A stretch of DNA of 43,118 nucleotides from an archaeon (lineage in GTDB: Archaea; Thermoproteota; Nitrososphaeria; Nitrososphaerales; Gagatemarchaeaceae). A program made the position numbers and the translations under genes. Positions 2,999 to 30,245 of this stretch are shown here, one piece after another (position 1 is the first letter of the stretch; every line of letters begins with the position of its first letter). The DNA is taken from contig JAJYYP010000005.1 of the NCBI GenBank assembly GCA_021800855.1, forward strand, positions 1 to 43,118, read 5' to 3'. The notes beneath the pieces were generated by a model. It did no database searches and was not told the DNA's origin. It worked only from the letters and a program-made list of their open reading frames with translations.

Positions 2999-3522
2999 TG
3001 GACCGTCACCCCGAATCTGTCCTTGAAGTACTGCATCGCCTCGTCTCTGGTGACTCGGTGGGACCTTCCCACCCTGGATGTCCGGCGGTTACGCCGCGAG
3101 ACCACATACCCCGGCCTCTCGAGGAGGATTGAGACGTTCATCCCGAGTATCCCAATCGCGGGGTCGTATCTGATGCCAGGTATCTCGATGTGCTCACGAA
3201 TCCCGAAGGAGACCGAGCCTTGAGGGTCGAACGACGACTCTGCCAGCTTCTTCTCTCTGGCGGTGAGCAGCTTCTCGATGAGCGCGGCCGTACCGCCCCC
3301 CCTCACCGTGACCACCACCCCGATGGGCTCCCCTTTGTGGATCCCGAAGTCCCTCACCGACTTCTTGGCACGGGTCTGCGCGGGGGTCTGGCCGGTCACC
3401 TGTTCCAGGACCTTCTTCCCCCTTTCTATCGCTTCTCCCGACTTCCCAAGGCCTATGTTCACAACGACCTTGCCCACCTTGATCTCCCGCATCGGGTGTG
3501 CCTGGACCATGGACTGGCTCAT
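2995..3522 (-). CDS. rpl5: Ribosomal protein uL5
   Basis: 5S rRNA-binding large-subunit protein, 175 residues. [20 protein letters not shown] and [20 protein letters not shown] are the conserved L5 blocks. ATG start at 3522 overlapping the S4e stop as ATGA. A second ATG ten residues in would also give an acceptable L5, so the extreme N-terminus is slightly uncertain. Confidence 0.94.
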
Positions 3523-23740: not shown

Positions 23741-24757
23741 TCAGGGGCTCAGGAGGACCTTCCCCTGCACCTCGCGGGATTCGACTATCTCGTGGGCCTC
23801 CCTCGCGGAGCTGAGCGGGAGGTTCCTGTACACAGCGGGCTTCAGCCTTCCTGAGACAGCAAGCTCCATGACCGCTCTCAGGTCTTCCCTAGACTGGCCG
23901 TAGACCCCCATCAGCTTCAGCTCGTCCTGATACACTCTGCGGACGTCGACTTCGGATTTCGCCCCCGAAGTGAGACCGAGAGAGACCATCCGCCCTCCCT
24001 TCGCGAGGCAGTCGAGGCTGGTGGACCACGTATCCCCCCCAACGTGGTCGAAGACCACCGAAACGCCGAGCCCGGCGGTGAGGGCGCGGACCTTCTCTGC
24101 AAGGTCGACAGACTTGACGACCACGGAGTCTGCCCCCAGAGACTTCACGAATCCGCTCTTCCTTTCATCACCTACCACTGCGATTACGGTCGCTCCGAGG
24201 TGCTTGGCGACCTGGACCGCAGCGTGGCCAAGGCCACCAGCGGCCCCCCAGACGAGGACGGTATCCCCCCTGCTGACCCCTGCCTTCCCCACGAGGCCGT
24301 TCCAAGCAGTCCCGAAGTTTACAGGAAGGCACGCAGCGGTCTCAGGGTCGAGGTCACCCATGGGGATGAGATTGGCAGCCGGAACCTTGACGAGCTCTGC
24401 GTACCCTCCGTCCGTCGCGACCCCGACGAATCCCCTCGATAGGCAAAGGTTCAGCCTGCCCTGGCGGCAATAGACGCACGACCCGTCGGAGAGTACCGGA
24501 TAGACCAAGACCCTGTCCCCAGGCATGGTCCCCTTGACCCCCGGCCCTGAAGATACTACCTCGCCTGAGATGTCTGTCCCTGGGATGTGCGGCAGAGACG
24601 TCTTGTATCTTCCGCTCCTTGCCCATACGTCGATCCGGTTGACGCCACAGAGGGACACGCGCAGGACGACCTCTGAAGGACCCGCTTCGGGGTCACGGAC
24701 TTCCTTGTAGGAGAGGACCTCCGGCCCTCCAGGTGTTTCGAACTGCGCTGCTTTCAT
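23741..24757 (-). CDS. Zinc-type alcohol dehydrogenase / quinone reductase family
   Basis: MDR-family oxidoreductase, 338 residues. N-terminal GroES-like domain with CGVNRIDVWARSG and HIPGTDISGEV, structural-zinc lobe GSCVYCRQGRLNLC (three Cys; the usual first Cys is replaced), then the Rossmann domain VLVWGAAGGLGHAAVQVAKHLGA. The usual catalytic-zinc His in GHE is replaced by GTD, as in quinone-oxidoreductase-like members, so a zinc-free NADPH-dependent reductase is possible. Follows the symporter by 32 bases and may be co-transcribed. Confidence 0.87.
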   Translation of the reverse strand: MKAAQFETPGGPEVLSYKEVRDPEAGPSEVVLRVSLCGVNRIDVWARSGRYKTSLPHIPGTDISGEVVSSGPGVKGTMPGDRVLVYPVLSDGSCVYCRQGRLNLCLSRGFVGVATDGGYAELVKVPAANLIPMGDLDPETAACLPVNFGTAWNGLVGKAGVSRGDTVLVWGAAGGLGHAAVQVAKHLGATVIAVVGDERKSGFVKSLGADSVVVKSVDLAEKVRALTAGLGVSVVFDHVGGDTWSTSLDCLAKGGRMVSLGLTSGAKSEVDVRRVYQDELKLMGVYGQSREDLRAVMELAVSGRLKPAVYRNLPLSSAREAHEIVESREVQGKVLLSP

Positions 24758-24789
24758 TCTTCGACCGTCTGGAAGGGCGGCTACTTACA

Positions 24790-26277
24790 TTAAGCGCCCT
24801 GCGTCGCGACGGCCCTGGGCCTTGATGCAAGTGTCGCGACAAGGACTATGGCCAGGTTGAAGGCCAACGCCGTCGCTCCCACGTAGAAGGCCCCGAAAGG
24901 CGGGGTGTTGAAGAAAGAGGTTGACCACGTGCCGAACTTGTTTGCATCCGCCATCAAGTAGACTCCGAGAAGCTCGCTAACCACCAGTCCGACGATGAGC
25001 CCGTACTTGTTCAACCTGTTCGTGATAAGGCCGCCGAATATTGAGGGGAGGGTCTGGACCACGAGGATCGTCCCGAAGAGCTGCAGTTGGACGGCGTACG
25101 TCGAATTGACCACGAAGACGAACGCCAGTGCGATGAACTTGAAGGCAACGGACGCCCACTTTGCTATCTGTGTCTCACCTGTCGGAGACAGGTTGGGCTT
25201 GAAGACCTTGACTATGTTCCTAGTGAGCAAGTTCGCCTGGGAGATGGCCATGATCGCTGCCGGGACGAGGCCACCGATGAAGATCCCCAGGAAGGCTATC
25301 CCTGCAGCCCAAGGCGGTAAAACACTCTGTATTATGGATGGGACGACGAGGAGGCCGCTCCCACCGTTCGCTTTCACGAAGTGGAGCGCCGCAGTGTTTC
25401 CATAGATGACTACACCGTACAACGCGAGCAACCCGAGCCCAATACCATAGATCGGAAGGAGAGCGGAACTCTTCCTCACCTTTTCTGCGTCCTGCGCGCT
25501 GAGGACCCCGTTCATCGCATGCGGATACAGGTAAAGCGCCAGCGCGCTCACGATGAAGATGCTCCAGTAGGCGTTCTCCAGTGCTGGAGCCAAGGTGGAA
25601 TACACAGGCTTAGCGGTGAAGCCGGCAGAGAAGCCCCCGCCGATAGCCACCGCCGCAATCACCGCGATGACCCCCCCGAATATCAGAATGTCCTTCAGGA
25701 CCGCCGTTAGGGTGGCTCCTCTGAGCCCGCTCGTGTACGTGAAAGCTGCGAGGACTACGAATGCGATGATGAGCGATATCTCAGAGTCCGTCGTCACATT
25801 TGAAACGCCGGCTAGCATCGTGGTCAGGACGGCCTGCATCCCCACTATCTGTAACGCGATGTAGGGGAGCTCGGCGACTATCCCCACAATGGCGATCAGT
25901 ATGGCCAGAGTCGTGCTGTTGAACGTCCCTTTCGCGAAGTCGGCCCCGGTGATGTACCCTTTTTCGCGTGTGATGCGCCAGAACTTCGGCATGAACAGGA
26001 TGGCTATCCCGAACGTCAGAGCGACATAGGGGACAGCGAAATTGTAAATGGCTCCCTTCGCGTAGACCCCGGACGGAATCGCGATGAAAGTGTACGCCGT
26101 GTAGAGGTCAGCGCCTACGAGGAACCAGACCAGATACGTCCCCATCCTCCTCCCCGCGAGCGCCCACTCGCTGAGGTTGTTCATGTCGCCCCGCCTCCAG
26201 CGCGACCCAAAGAACCCGAGGGCGACGAAGACGACAAAGAGCGCGAGGAAGGCGACTACGCCGTCTATAGCCATCAT
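24790..26277 (-). CDS. Sodium:solute symporter (SSS family)
   Basis: Inner-membrane transporter of about 13 helices, 495 residues. N-terminal FFGSRWRRGDMNNLSEWALAGRRMG followed by TAYTFIAIPSGVYAKG is the SSS start; ALALYLYPHAMNGVLSA sits in the central region typical of the family. Substrates of this branch include organic acids such as pantothenate, acetate or proline; which one is unknown. Preceded by a DUF3311 gene one base away, the pairing commonly seen for this SSS branch. ATG at 26277 or three bases later. Confidence 0.92.
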   Translation of the reverse strand: MMAIDGVVAFLALFVVFVALGFFGSRWRRGDMNNLSEWALAGRRMGTYLVWFLVGADLYTAYTFIAIPSGVYAKGAIYNFAVPYVALTFGIAILFMPKFWRITREKGYITGADFAKGTFNSTTLAILIAIVGIVAELPYIALQIVGMQAVLTTMLAGVSNVTTDSEISLIIAFVVLAAFTYTSGLRGATLTAVLKDILIFGGVIAVIAAVAIGGGFSAGFTAKPVYSTLAPALENAYWSIFIVSALALYLYPHAMNGVLSAQDAEKVRKSSALLPIYGIGLGLLALYGVVIYGNTAALHFVKANGGSGLLVVPSIIQSVLPPWAAGIAFLGIFIGGLVPAAIMAISQANLLTRNIVKVFKPNLSPTGETQIAKWASVAFKFIALAFVFVVNSTYAVQLQLFGTILVVQTLPSIFGGLITNRLNKYGLIVGLVVSELLGVYLMADANKFGTWSTSFFNTPPFGAFYVGATALAFNLAIVLVATLASRPRAVATQGA

Positions 26278-26278
26278 G

Positions 26279-26479
26279 TCAGCCTTTCCTCCCTAGCAAC
26301 AAAGCGGCGATGAAGAAGAGGACTGCGCTGATGGCAAGCCAGACGGTCTGATACCACCAAAAGAATGGGACTCCCCCCCACATCGGGTTCACAACATTGT
26401 ACGATGGGATGGCGAAGTACACAAAGAACGGAATCGCGATCAGTATGCCAGCCAGGGCATCTTTCGACTTCACGCGCAC
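26279..26479 (-). CDS. DUF3311 small membrane protein, symporter partner
   Basis: 66 residues with two hydrophobic helices (about 9-26 and 43-62) and the motif NPMWGGVPFFWWYQTVWL, typical of DUF3311, a small protein usually encoded right before an SSS transporter. GTG start at 26479; CTTATATC (26506-26499) lies 24 bases upstream, so the mRNA is probably leaderless. It is the first gene of the transporter unit. The function is presumed to be a small symporter subunit. Confidence 0.88.
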   Translation of the reverse strand: MRVKSKDALAGILIAIPFFVYFAIPSYNVVNPMWGGVPFFWWYQTVWLAISAVLFFIAALLLGRKG

Positions 26480-27054
26480 AGACTCTACACAAAGACTGGA
26501 TATAAGATTGAGCGAACGCCGAGTCTAATGGGAGAGAGTTGGACAACTGTCGAATCAGAAGCCTCAGGCAAGGCTTCAAGCGTGGGGGTCTGCCGGGGGA
26601 AACCTTTAGTCAGGGATGGGGCGTTGTCCTTCAAGTCCATCATCTCGCGATAATACCCCCGTAGTCCTCTTTGTGAAGTGATGGCGGTAGAGGGAGACTT
26701 TTGTTTCGAGGCGCAAGAGGTACTCGTGGACCCTCTGAGCCGCATCCTCCCTCTTTGCCATGGCTTCCGCCACCAGGCCCTATCCCGACTCTACGTCCTT
26801 CGAGGCGAAGATGACTATAAGGGAGGTCATGGCGTGGTCGTCGACGGCGTCCTCGCCCCTGCTGCCCGACTTCAGGCCGGCCAGCCTCCCTAGGAACGAG
26901 TTCGGGCCGCCGCCTGTAGCGACGATTACGGAGCCACATTCTAGCTCGACCGTATGCCCGGTGGGGACTGGGATCCTCCTCCCCGCGCAAGCGTCCGCGA
27001 CAGAGGAGACCCAGCCAGGCCTGGTCCGATCGACGTGGATTCAGAAGAGATTTG
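26480..27054. other. Stretch without a confident gene; coding-like minus frames
   Basis: 575 bases between DUF3311 and the tRNA. The minus strand has an open frame from about 27033 to a TAG at 26780-26782 with GC-rich third positions and ordinary-looking protein (for example SVIVATGGGPNSFLGRLAG), but no ATG, GTG or TTG before its middle. Seven bases past its stop, a GTG at 26773 or ATG at 26761 opens a 51-55 residue frame ending at 26606 (MAKREDAAQRVHEYLLRLE and on). Either a degraded gene or two small genes with an unusual start. The remaining 26480-26605 shows nothing I can name. Confidence 0.35.
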
Positions 27055-27184
27055 CGGGCCTGGTGGGATTCGAATTCGCGGGCGTGCTTGCGCCTCCCAC
27101 GGCATGCTGGTGACTCCCACAAGCTAGCTAAGAGCCAGCCGCTTTCAGGTCGCTTTCGCACTAACCTGGCTGAGCCACAGGCCC
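27055..27184 (-). tRNA. trnK-CUU: tRNA-Lys(CUU) with three introns
   Basis: Acceptor strands GGGCCTG (27184-27178) and CAGGCCC (27062-27056) pair, with G27055 as discriminator and no encoded CCA. Anticodon stem GCTGG pairs perfectly with CCAGC only after removing 27128-27112 (17 bases, position 37/38); the loop is CTCTTAA with anticodon CTT at 27132-27130. T stem GTGGG pairs with CCCAC and loop TTCGAAT only after removing 27095-27075 (21 bases, position 53/54). The D arm needs 27161-27145 (17 bases, +/-1) removed, near position 22. Each junction can be drawn as a bulge-helix-bulge: CTCT/GGAG, CGTG/CGCG and AGGT/ACCT central helices with 3-base bulges. The mature RNA is 75 bases. Confidence 0.9.
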
Positions 27185-27210
27185 ACGAAACCAGCGCGCC
27201 ATTCCTCTGA

Positions 27211-27220
27211 ATTAAAAGCA
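27211..27220 (-). promoter_or_regulatory. tRNA-Lys promoter, box A
   Basis: TGCTTTTAAT on the minus strand lies about 30 bases before the tRNA 5' end, the normal distance for an archaeal tRNA promoter that starts a few bases upstream of the mature end. Confidence 0.6.
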
Positions 27221-27349
27221 TTCGTGCGGGGGACGTCGTTGGACCCCTCGGCCTCCATCGCTCGAGCCGGAGCGGCTGCAGGGACAGCCCTTGGAGAGAC
27301 AACTAAGTACCTTCAGGCTTCAAATACCTCCAACGAGAGCGAAGCGTCG

Positions 27350-28390
27350 TTGGGACGACTGAGCTTCGTGGGCCTCGGTCTCGGCGCGAAGGGGATGACC
27401 ATAGAGGGCGCGGAAGAGGTAGCGGGCTCTGATATCGTGTATCTAGAGTACTACACTACCCCGCACGAGCCGGAGCTCCTGAGGGAGCTGCAGTCAGCGA
27501 CGACCAGGAATTTCACAGTGGTCGATAGGCAGTTCGTGGAAGATGGAAGCAGGATCCTCGCGGACGCGAAGGAGAAGAAGGTGGCTCTGGCCGTCCTTGG
27601 CGACCCGATGGTTGCCACCACCCATAACGAGCTTAGGGCACGGGCAATCAGGATGGGGATTGAGACGCGCGTCGTGCACTCGGCGACAATAGCTTCCGCG
27701 GCCGCCAGCGAATGTGGACTTCACTTGTACAAGTTCGCGAGGACTGTCACCGTGACGAGGGAGTCCGTGAGAAAGCTTACGCAGGTATACCATATCCTCC
27801 ACTCTAACCTCCTCGAAGGTGCCCACACCCTGCTGTTGCTCGAGTACGACGTCCAGAGGGGGGAGGGGGTGACACCGGCGGACGCCATGGCAGGGCTGCT
27901 GCTGGCCGAGGCGAACTTCAAGCACGGGGTTGTCTCTCAGGAGACTTTCGCCATAGTCGTCTCCAGGCTCGGCCGCGGAGGGAGCGGGTCGGCTGCCGGG
28001 ACGCTCGGCGAGCTCTCCAAACGTGACTTCGGGGAGCCCCCGCACAGCGTCATCGTCCCGGGCCGGCTGCACTTCTCTGAGGTGGAGGCGGTGGCGGCGA
28101 TATTCGCACTAGAGGAGAGAGCAGTCAGGAGCAACTCGGAAGGAGTGCTCAGGACAGCTCAGACGCTGGTCCCGAAGTACGTGGCCAAGACAAAGAAAGC
28201 GCTCGAGAGCCTGCAGAAGAGTCTGGGAGGCCAGTATGAACACGTCGTGGAGAACGCGGAGCTTTACCTGAGGGACGCAGAGAACTTTTTGGCGAACGGA
28301 CAGGATGAGATGGCCATGCTGAGCGTCGGGTACGCCGAAGGTCTTTTGGACTCGCTTGCGTTCGCCGGCGTGGCAAAGATAGACTGGTGA
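27350..28390 (+). CDS. dphB: Diphthine synthase fused to a DUF357 domain
   Basis: Methyltransferase of diphthamide synthesis on elongation factor 2, about 346 residues from a TTG at 27350. The start LSFVGLGLGAKGMTIEGAEEV and VYLEYYTT, then LAVLGDPMVATTHNELRARA, are DphB (SAM tetrapyrrole-methylase fold); SVIVPGRLHFSEVEAVAAIF ends the catalytic part near residue 255. The last ~85 residues (AELYLRDAENFLANGQDEMA and GYAEGLLDSLAFAG) match the helical DUF357 domain of archaea. The frame is open upstream to 27224, but TTCAAATA at 27319-27326 fits the TTG start. The next gene follows after three bases. Confidence 0.88.
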   Translation: MGRLSFVGLGLGAKGMTIEGAEEVAGSDIVYLEYYTTPHEPELLRELQSATTRNFTVVDRQFVEDGSRILADAKEKKVALAVLGDPMVATTHNELRARAIRMGIETRVVHSATIASAAASECGLHLYKFARTVTVTRESVRKLTQVYHILHSNLLEGAHTLLLLEYDVQRGEGVTPADAMAGLLLAEANFKHGVVSQETFAIVVSRLGRGGSGSAAGTLGELSKRDFGEPPHSVIVPGRLHFSEVEAVAAIFALEERAVRSNSEGVLRTAQTLVPKYVAKTKKALESLQKSLGGQYEHVVENAELYLRDAENFLANGQDEMAMLSVGYAEGLLDSLAFAGVAKIDW

Positions 28391-28393
28391 CAG

Positions 28394-28993
28394 ATGAAAA
28401 GCAAGAAGATCCTTGCGGCGATATTTTCAATCAGGGTAGCCGGGAGGAGGGCGGGGACCAAGGAACTCGCTGAGAGGCTCGGGCTGAGCCAAAAGGAAGC
28501 GAGAACCGAGCTCAGGAACCTGTCGCGGCTCGGGCTGGCGAGGCTAGGGAACAAGGGAGCTGAGCTGACGCCTCAGGGCAGGAAGGCAATCAAGGTAGTC
28601 TTCATTGGAGGGGGTTTCGAGGTGATCCACTACGGGCATCTCTACACCATAGAGAAGGCCAAGAGCTTAGGAGACGTGCTCGTTGTCTCTGTAGCCCGGG
28701 ACAGCACGATCAGGAAGAGGAAGAATCGTGAGCCTCTCGTAGGAGAGAAGGATAGGTCGAAGCTCCTCTCAGCCCTCAGGTACGTCGACGCCGCCATTCT
28801 GGGCGTCGAAGGGGACATCTACATCACGCTCGAGAGGGTGGACCCAGACGTGGTCGCCCTGGGTTACGACCAGTATCACATGGAGGACGAGATAATGGCA
28901 GAATCAGCCCGGAGGGGGATGAAGCTCAGGGTGGTGCGCCTCGATACGCCCTACCCAGGCATCAAGACGAGCCGTCTACTGCGTGACTTCTAG
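28394..28993 (+). CDS. ribL: Winged-helix plus nucleotidyltransferase, FAD-synthase (RibL) type
   Basis: 199 residues in two parts. Residues 1-65 form a winged helix (TKELAERLGLSQKEARTELRNLSRLGLARLG). From residue 67 comes a cytidylyltransferase-type fold: VFIGGGFEVIHYGHLYTIEKAK with the HxGH motif at 79-82, RDSTIRKRKNREP, and the closing KTSR at 191-194, the counterpart of ISSTR. Archaeal RibL makes FAD from FMN and ATP with this fold; glycerol-3-phosphate cytidylyltransferase is the alternative. The DNA-binding-like N-terminus is an addition to the usual ~150-residue RibL. ATG at 28394, three bases after dphB. Confidence 0.78.
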   Translation: MKSKKILAAIFSIRVAGRRAGTKELAERLGLSQKEARTELRNLSRLGLARLGNKGAELTPQGRKAIKVVFIGGGFEVIHYGHLYTIEKAKSLGDVLVVSVARDSTIRKRKNREPLVGEKDRSKLLSALRYVDAAILGVEGDIYITLERVDPDVVALGYDQYHMEDEIMAESARRGMKLRVVRLDTPYPGIKTSRLLRDF

Positions 28994-29697
28994 GCCGAAC
29001 GCCCGAGCTTCTTCTCCAGCTGGGCCATGGCGTCGCTGACAGAACTGCGCCCTATCTCCTCTGCGAGCAGGCCTCTGGTGTCCTCGACGAGCATGCGAGC
29101 CACGTCAATCTTTCTCCTGGCACCGTTCACCACGTGGTCGTAGACTGCGAGCGGCGAGCAGGCCGCGTATAGGTCCTCCATGACCTCGAAGTACTTCTTG
29201 GCTCCCCCGAGGTCCCTCCCTAAAATCGAATCTAGCACCAGCCTCTTCAGCTCCCCCACCACGTCCAGGAGGCCGAGGAGGTATGCCTCGGGGGAGGAGT
29301 CGATGCTCTCCATCGAAGGTATCGGCTTCCCCTTCGCCAGCGAGACCACGACAGAGGCCTCGACCACCTCGGTCTCAGGGGAGACGACGTACCTCGATAA
29401 GGAGCCGTCCATCCCCTGTTTGAGCTCCTTCAGCAGAGACTTGGCCTTGGAAAGCTCCCTTTCAGCGTCCTTGGTCTTCCCCAAGTGGACGGATATGATC
29501 GCCCTTGAGGAGGCCGTGATGACATCCCTGCTCCCTTTGATGACCCTGTCACGACGCTCGAGCTGTTCAGAGAATCGCGCCTCCATCGCCTTCAGGGAAC
29601 GTCTGACCGCATCCAAGCTCGGCAGGGGTGGGAACAGTCGCGTCTTAAGTCTGCCATGCCCATGGGCCTCCACAGTTTTAGCGCCCCCGGCCGACAT
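28990..29697 (-). CDS. Translin-family protein
   Basis: 235-residue all-helical protein. The conserved part is in the C-terminal half: EASVVVSLAKGKPIPS, AYLLGLLDVVGELKRLVLDSI, KYFEVMEDLYAACSPLAVYD and ARRKIDVARMLVEDTRGLLAEEI, matching archaeal translin homologues, which bind RNA or single-stranded DNA. ATG at 29697 with an A/T-rich element 27 bases upstream. It converges with the nucleotidyltransferase, overlapping by four bases. Function in archaea is not established. Confidence 0.85.
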   Translation of the reverse strand: MSAGGAKTVEAHGHGRLKTRLFPPLPSLDAVRRSLKAMEARFSEQLERRDRVIKGSRDVITASSRAIISVHLGKTKDAERELSKAKSLLKELKQGMDGSLSRYVVSPETEVVEASVVVSLAKGKPIPSMESIDSSPEAYLLGLLDVVGELKRLVLDSILGRDLGGAKKYFEVMEDLYAACSPLAVYDHVVNGARRKIDVARMLVEDTRGLLAEEIGRSSVSDAMAQLEKKLGRSA

Positions 29698-29747
29698 AGC
29701 CGCTCCCGCCGGGGTTGGTTTTTATCTGCCGCCGAGCTTGTGACGCC

Positions 29748-29880
29748 GTTGCGACAGCCGGTAGGTTCGACCAGAGCGGGATCGAACGTGTGTACCTTGG
29801 CCCACGGATGGGACGGGCACCGCGCCGGGGGCCCAAGGCCAGTGCCGCCTCCACGTTCGGCCCGATTTCCCCAAATACCA
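29748..29880 (+). ncRNA. Candidate structured RNA, unassigned
   Basis: Intergenic stretch between divergent genes with strong nested pairing on either strand. Outer stem CGGG (29777-29780)/CCCG (29861-29864), then CGAACGTG (29783-29790)/CACGTTCG (29852-29859), eight perfect pairs; inner stem CCTTGG (29795-29800)/CCAAGG (29833-29838) extended by CCC/GGG. A small hairpin GGTTCGACC precedes at 29764-29772. TTTTTATC at 29719-29726 could be a box A for a plus-strand transcript starting near 29748. It is not a tRNA, 5S or recognisable RNase P or SRP RNA. The ends are guesses. Confidence 0.4.
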
Positions 29881-29954
29881 GTCAACTCGAACCCGTGGTT
29901 CGAAAGCAGGACTTATGCACTCGACGGAGCTGGCTCCACCTGAATAGCAACTAC

Positions 29955-30245
29955 GTGAAAGGCAGATCTCGCGAGTACCAGGCGATGACGAAGCTGAAGG
30001 AGGAGGGCTGGATGGTATCCAGGAGCGCCGCTTCCCACGGGGCCGTCGACGTCTTCGCAGCCAAGGACGGCAAGGTCCTGCTGGTTCAGGTCAAGAGCGG
30101 GAGGGCGAGGGCGACCAAGGAGGAACTCGGAGAGCTTGCGGAGTGGGGGAGGAACGCGAACGGGGACGCCGAGGTGTGGCATTACAAGGGGAGAGGCGAG
30201 TTGGTCAGGAGGAGGGTGTACGCGGCCAGGGGAGGGGTGTCCTGA
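29955..30245 (+). CDS. PD-(D/E)XK nuclease, Hjc-like
   Basis: 96 residues from a GTG at 29955: MKGRSREYQAMTKLKEEGWMVSRSAASHGAVDVFAAKDGKV-type sequence followed by LLVQVKSG. The Glu of REYQ, the Asp of AVDVFA and the Q-V-K of LLVQVKSG are the catalytic set of archaeal Holliday-junction resolvase-like nucleases. True Hjc is about 130 residues; this one is shorter at the C-terminus, so another nuclease role is possible. The open frame continues upstream to 29715 without family sequence. Confidence 0.78.
   Translation: MKGRSREYQAMTKLKEEGWMVSRSAASHGAVDVFAAKDGKVLLVQVKSGRARATKEELGELAEWGRNANGDAEVWHYKGRGELVRRRVYAARGGVS

Follow-up and report, generated by a model that had tools for sequence, protein, structure and literature searches.

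The window examined here, a 43,118-nucleotide stretch of genomic DNA from an archaeon of the Gagatemarchaeaceae, very likely carries a genuine tRNA-Lys(CUU) gene interrupted by three bulge-helix-bulge (BHB) introns. The structure of the gene, the intron boundaries (set by comparison), the conserved pairing of the cloverleaf and of the BHB motifs, the promoter box, and the gene set for a two-subunit splicing endonuclease (EndA) are shown below; there are no RNA data, and splicing and charging are inferred. The original prediction had placed at positions 27055–27184 a tRNA-Lys(CUU) with introns of 17, 17 and 21 nt, at about position 22, at 37/38 and at 53/54. The coordinates held exactly, with the gene lying on the minus strand, and the introns were upheld by their presence and absence in orthologues and by the parse. 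The features are as follows, with the supporting evidence in brackets.

27055–27184, minus strand: triple-intron tRNA-Lys(CUU) gene, 130 nt long and 75 nt when mature (orthologues, unbiased parse, spliced fold)
27161–27184, minus strand: exon 1, tRNA positions 1–22 (orthologue alignment, parse)
27144–27160, minus strand: intron 1, 17 nt, at 22/23, TGCGAAAGCGACCTGAA (missing at the joint in orthologues; MFE fold)
27129–27143, minus strand: exon 2, tRNA positions 23–37, including the anticodon (orthologue alignment, parse)
27130–27132, minus strand: anticodon CUU (parse, spliced fold)
27112–27128, minus strand: intron 2, 17 nt, at the canonical 37/38, GCTAGCTTGTGGGAGTC (missing at the joint in orthologues; helix invariant)
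27096–27111, minus strand: exon 3, tRNA positions 38–53 (orthologue alignment, parse)
27075–27095, minus strand: intron 3, 21 nt, at 53/54, AGGCGCAAGCACGCCCGCGAA (missing at the joint in orthologues; stem covariation)
27055–27074, minus strand: exon 4, tRNA positions 54–73, with discriminator G (orthologue alignment, parse)
27210–27217, minus strand: TATA-like box TTTTAATT, 26–33 nt upstream of the tRNA (orthologue comparison)
27224–28390, plus strand: dphB (diphthine synthase), divergent neighbour and synteny marker (homologous part from ~27350)

Read on the minus strand from its 5' end at 27184 to the discriminator G73 at 27055, with the introns in brackets, the gene is GGGCCTGTGGCTCAGCCAGGTTAG (tgcgaaagcgacctgaa) AGCGGCTGGCTCTTA (gctagcttgtgggagtc) ACCAGCATGCCGTGGG (aggcgcaagcacgcccgcgaa) TTCGAATCCCACCAGGCCCG. 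A custom parser allowing up to three introns, with three-intron placements restricted to a list of likely positions, gave exactly this solution its top score. Once spliced in silico, the 75-mer forms a complete tRNA-Lys(CUU) cloverleaf in ARAGORN with all stem pairs intact; the predicted 75-base mature tRNA with a CUU anticodon therefore held for the computed sequence, in the absence of RNA reads. Left unspliced, the gene is detected as a tRNA neither by ARAGORN nor by Rfam, the latter with a threshold as loose as E ≤ 10. Common tools fail to see such tRNAs, and genomes of this family will therefore appear to have no tRNA-Lys(CUU). A T/A-rich TATA-like box is found at the equivalent position in all nine orthologues compared.

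No further, uninterrupted copy of tRNA-Lys(CUU), which would have counted against the prediction, was found in the window genome (90.9% complete), by a search that falls short of a full tRNA census. Most of 14 extra T-arm-like sites from this genome gave no parse. More intron-bearing tRNA genes missed by Rfam were seen on its contigs C102 and C108 (L157, L158, L160), namely a probable Trp with a 57-nt intron, a Met with two introns and a Glu whose D arm holds a 36-nt insert; tRNA introns are abundant in this genome overall.

Orthologues were gathered from 46 genomes of Gagatemarchaeaceae (Thaumarchaeota Group I.1c) and by a scan with the neighbouring dphB protein, and most of the tRNA-Lys(CUU) genes found adjoin dphB. 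Among these records, SubAcS15-57 and SubAcS15-15 belong to the Gagatemarchaeaceae, formerly Thaumarchaeota Group I.1c, of acid soils (PMC10640624), and SubAcS15-57 is of the same genus as the window genome. Each intron is missing exactly at the predicted joint in some orthologues: intron 1 in L033–L038, L053, L055 and L066 (GGTTAGAGCGG), intron 2 in L031, L032, L044, L052 and L084 (CTCTTAACCAGC), and intron 3 in L046 and L048 (GTGGGTTCGAATCC). The three inserts are therefore not a product of chance. In L051 and L056 the gene is intron-free and scores 68.8 bits as a tRNA, against 38.6–44.2 bits for two-intron genes.

By my own count, at least 16 genomes of the family have three introns in this gene, in three combinations of positions 15/16, 22–25, 37/38 and 53/54; G009 and G010 have a single intron, and G001 has none. 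The exons are nearly invariant across nine aligned triple-intron orthologues. These counts, together with multiple noncanonical introns already known in Thaumarchaeota (PMC8450103) and Asgard archaea (PMC11291895), make too narrow the claim, part of the original prediction, that triple-intron tRNAs are known mainly from Thermoproteales. Intron states change 3–6 times over 20 loci, and L031 and L038, which are sisters in a dphB tree with support 99/97, have fully complementary intron sets, with a 5' endonuclease present in L031.

Some loci are irregular. The intron-free gene is apparently present in three copies (L051:2–76, L056:48–122 and 3343–3417), two of them on one short contig, where assembly duplication is possible. 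G002 has two tRNA-Lys(CUU) genes 1.3 kb apart with differing intron sets (L084:1481–1588 and 2830–2935), the second of which has lost its 5' acceptor strand. The G003 gene (L173:2140–2251) has an intron near 42/43, a position absent from the other orthologues. Half genes in G037 (contig C40) and G042 were considered as a split tRNA, and this was rejected, both being contig ends.

The folds of the three introns differ. In the minimum free energy fold of intron 1, a 6-bp central helix (CAGGUU/GACCUG) lies between 3-nt bulges (AGU/AAA), with a 2-bp GC stem closed by a GAAA loop. It is thus a relaxed BHB that departs from the strict 4-bp form, as shown by the fold, with its cleavage inferred; (alpha-beta)2 EndA is known to accept relaxed BHB motifs as substrates (PMC6379350). 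In G041 intron 1 is 15 nt long, and its bases permit a strict 4-bp helix. Intron 2 is of the hBH type: the exon-side helix is the anticodon stem, the central helix is 4 bp (CUCU/GGAG) with 3-nt bulges, and the inner stem is absent. Taken alone, it folds more stably as a different hairpin (−12.2 versus −7.7 kcal/mol), and all four pairs of its helix are invariant across 17 sequences. In intron 3 the 4-bp helix pairs exon positions 48–51 (CGUG) with intron CGCG (CACG in most relatives), between 3-nt bulges; the inner stem is 4–5 bp (GGCG/CGCC) and the exon-side helix is absent. The expectation of 3-base bulges and a 4-bp central helix in every intron therefore held in part, for introns 2 and 3, the helix being 6 bp in intron 1.

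Across the 17 orthologues with introns 2 and 3, BHB helix cells are paired in 98% of cases, and pairing drops to 33–50% when the partners are shifted by 1–3 columns. Two-sided changes were counted in six BHB cells; shuffles gave 1.1, and none of 500 reached six. In the inner stem of intron 3, three of the five pairs show two-sided changes in the same orthologues. Other placements of intron 1 were tried and rejected. At 25/26 or 26/27 it would also be 17 nt long, through a GAAAGCG repeat, with a U:U mismatch in the D stem and no BHB, and relatives reading GGTTAG|AGCG contradict these sites. Cutting two bases earlier, which allows a 4-bp helix, would lengthen the D arm by two bases.

The prediction had also implied a broad-specificity splicing endonuclease, heteromeric or with an extended loop. 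A search for EndA paralogues supported this, as the window genome encodes two: an alpha protein on contig C16 and a beta-like protein on contig C34. The former matches the A. pernix alpha chain 3p1z_B (E = 6.3e-44) and keeps the Tyr/His/Lys triad. Its crenarchaea-specific loop (CSL), GYYGKPLGIPKPKDFEF, aligns to K44-P45-R46 of A. pernix, with a Lys followed by Pro-Lys; these three residues matter for cleavage and broad specificity in the A. pernix enzyme (PMC6379350, PMC12397907). The C34 protein has no catalytic His. A heteromeric, extended-loop EndA of broad specificity is supported by the two paralogues and the CSL lysine, while the (alpha-beta)2 assembly and the cleavage of relaxed BHB motifs are inferred. 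A pair of EndA genes is commonly seen in the family's better genomes, G001 with its uninterrupted tRNA-Lys among them. The likeness to crenarchaeal (alpha-beta)2 enzymes such as Aeropyrum pernix 3p1z lies in an alpha subunit with the Y/H/K triad, the K44-equivalent CSL lysine, a Pro and a basic residue, and in a separate non-catalytic partner (PMC6379350, PMC12397907). The difference is that here the beta-like partner is short (181 aa) and closest, among solved structures, to the 1a79 endonuclease, and that the lineage is thaumarchaeal.

In 13 relatives, the window genome not being among them, a free-standing LAGLIDADG open reading frame (ORF) adjoins the interrupted tRNA-Lys(CUU), ten on its 5' side and three on its 3' side. 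The loci, including those at other tRNA genes, are as follows.

L031:4239–4862 (minus strand), L168:1501–2112 (minus strand), and L169, L170, L171, L172, L173, L174 and L176: LAGLIDADG ORF directly 5' of tRNA-Lys(CUU)
L178:1393–2157 (plus strand) and L183:1228–2010 (minus strand): second, related LAGLIDADG ORF directly 3' of the triple-intron tRNA-Lys (G032, G035)
L200:1303–1395 (minus strand), L182:2096–2215 (plus strand) and L192:1298–1390 (minus strand): intron-bearing tRNA-Thr, tRNA-Ser and tRNA-Phe loci, each with a free-standing LAGLIDADG ORF alongside

The 5'-side type matches PF14528 (LAGLIDADG_3; E = 2.6e-7). A search of the 46 genomes gave ten strong matches, every one directly 5' of tRNA-Lys(CUU), and each of these ten tRNAs has an intron at 22–25, most also at 15/16. 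The ORF stop codon lies 26–42 nt from the tRNA in eight of nine cases measured; the ORF of G012 is frame-shifted, with its first stop at 194 nt. Around the tRNA of G016 and G012 a LAGLIDADG frame is accompanied by fragments of a second tRNA-Lys and by a complete tRNA-Lys with other introns. In G012 the displaced 5' half, upstream of the ORF, is clear and has no 15/16 intron; in G011 a displaced 5' half is faint. Older, broken tRNA-Lys halves were also seen flanking an endonuclease/tRNA cassette on one or both sides (L164:1–1201 and L162:1–551; SubAcS15-15, A_CRE_07).

Beyond the 3' ORF of G032 and G035 stands a duplicate T arm and acceptor without the 53/54 intron. These 3'-side inserts are ~0.7 kb long and contain the LAGLIDADG ORF only, with no integrase, and in G032 a repeat of ~20–25 bp is common to both tRNA 3' ends. 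In G040 the second type of ORF persists only as a pseudogene, next to a tRNA carrying introns 2 and 3, and in G034 a small endonuclease remnant lies 3' of a tRNA without intron 3. A displaced piece without the intron that the enzyme-linked copy carries is clear in three cases only (G032, G035 and G012). The endonuclease is missing from most genomes with intron 3; a search of the window genome gave no match to it, and positions 24000–30000 of the window hold neither an endonuclease remnant nor a displaced 3' tRNA end. No solved structure is related by sequence to the endonuclease.

Other free-standing relatives in the family adjoin, by hand folding, tRNA-Thr(CGU) (intron near 25), tRNA-Ser (near 32/33) and tRNA-Phe(GAA) (24/25). 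In another family of the class, five LAGLIDADG cases lie within ~0.5 kb of a tRNA. As a control, none of 29 EndA loci has a tRNA within 700 nt. Exceptions are L195, L197 and L216, without a nearby tRNA, and L221, which is unsettled; matches within frames longer than ~500 aa are probably inteins. One LAGLIDADG ORF (L196) was seen within the 23S rRNA gene of G002.

A mechanism can be proposed from these observations. The pre-tRNA would be cut at 22/23, 37/38 and 53/54 by a broad-specificity (alpha-beta)2 EndA, and the usual archaeal ligase would join the exons into a 75-nt tRNA reading AAG. It is about as likely as not, as an inference, that at least the 53/54 intron, and probably those of the D arm, spread through this locus together with LAGLIDADG homing endonucleases; the homing activity is inferred, as there is no cleavage assay. 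The displaced ends indicate, from three clear cases, that a cassette made of an intron-bearing tRNA half and an endonuclease entered a gene without that intron. The LAGLIDADG enzyme would recognise and cut the uninterrupted tRNA gene, and repair would copy in the neighbouring cassette, whose tRNA half has a short intron breaking the recognition site. With the intron excised from the RNA, the element would be both harmless and immune. Should the two tRNA 3' ends later recombine, the enzyme would be lost and only the intron would stay behind, which is the state of the window. In G032 recombination at the 3'-end repeat would drop the enzyme and so give the window's structure, an inference, as the window itself has no remnant.

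A bolder reading, on which I would not commit either way, is that short tRNA introns are the immunity part of split homing elements, in which a free-standing LAGLIDADG enzyme cuts the uninterrupted gene. Repair would place a BHB intron so that it spans the cut site exactly, and would shift the old half aside; once tRNA halves had recombined and the enzyme was gone, multi-intron tRNA genes like that of the window would remain. Against homing stand the absence of an endonuclease from most intron-3 genomes and from the window genome, and the G034 remnant beside a tRNA without intron 3.

Three other explanations were considered. That the locus is a decayed tRNA pseudogene with three degenerative inserts is very unlikely. 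Standard tRNA finders do reject it, and real relics of the tRNA-Lys gene exist in some relatives; against this, no stem pair of the mature form is broken, the inserts keep their BHB pairing with compensatory changes, the exons of the nine triple-intron orthologues barely vary, the promoter box is retained, and the search of the genome, short of a full tRNA census, gave no replacement gene. The remaining two concern only where the introns came from. Integrase elements of the SSV or pNOB8 type might have used the tRNA as an attachment site and brought the introns in, as the duplicated tRNA 3' or 5' ends flanking the inserts resemble att sites, and a precedent has been proposed for the Caldiarchaeum tRNA-Thr (PMC3293823). 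This is unlikely: the enzymes match LAGLIDADG_3, and the short 3' inserts of G032 and G035 lack an integrase.

A stronger rival is that these are ordinary, vertically inherited introns subject to random gain and loss, the nearby endonucleases being unrelated passengers that prefer tRNA ends. It is compatible with a real triple-intron tRNA, and is favoured by the many intron-3 genomes without an endonuclease and by the wide occurrence in archaea of short introns at 37/38 and elsewhere (PMC8450103). However, it must contend with displaced tRNA halves that lack the intron on the far side of the enzyme, with the complementary intron sets of the sisters L031 and L038, one of which has the enzyme, with 3–6 changes of intron state among only 20 loci, and with endonucleases that sit specifically at tRNA genes. 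I consider it somewhat less likely than not.

The origin of archaeal tRNA introns at odd positions, and of triple sets, is an old open question. Close relatives offer here the same gene with 0, 1, 2 and 3 introns, along with displaced halves that record the state before insertion. A named enzyme family could drive intron gain, and a mechanism with the intron as immunity becomes directly testable.

Among known systems, the tRNA genes with several introns in Thermoproteales (Pyrobaculum) and in other archaea (PMC8450103, citing Sugahara 2008) are alike in having up to three short BHB introns, canonical and noncanonical, in one gene. Unlike those of Thermoproteales, the genes described here belong to acid-soil Thaumarchaeota (Group I.1c), and the set in one gene varies from 0 to 3 introns over at least five positions within one family. 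At the tRNA-Thr(GGU) locus of Caldiarchaeum subterraneum, gain of a 24/25 intron was accompanied by an insert and by displacement of a 5' half, for which an integrase-type element was proposed (Sugahara 2012, PMC3293823). As here, a mobile insert separates a displaced 5' half poor in introns from a tRNA that has a further D-arm intron, and an ORF stands directly 5' of that tRNA. The Caldiarchaeum ORF was termed a recombinase and tied to pNOB8 plasmids, whereas here the ORFs encode LAGLIDADG homing endonucleases, inserts lie both 5' and 3' of the tRNA, and the tRNA-Lys target is common to several species. Phages offer examples of free-standing endonucleases directed at intron insertion sites, a process called collaborative homing (Zeng, Bonocora and Shub 2009; PMC3984707), and there too a free-standing endonuclease adjoins a gene whose ORF-less intron may interrupt its target. 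In a search of the open-access literature, no paper was found linking collaborative homing with tRNA intron gain of the Caldiarchaeum type. The present case differs from that of phages in that the introns are BHB tRNA introns of 14–22 nt, excised by a protein enzyme and not of group I, in an archaeal tRNA rather than a phage protein gene, with cleavage inferred. The window gene alone adds to the known triple-intron kind; the endonucleases and displaced halves of its relatives add a testable mechanism, inferred from sequence alone.
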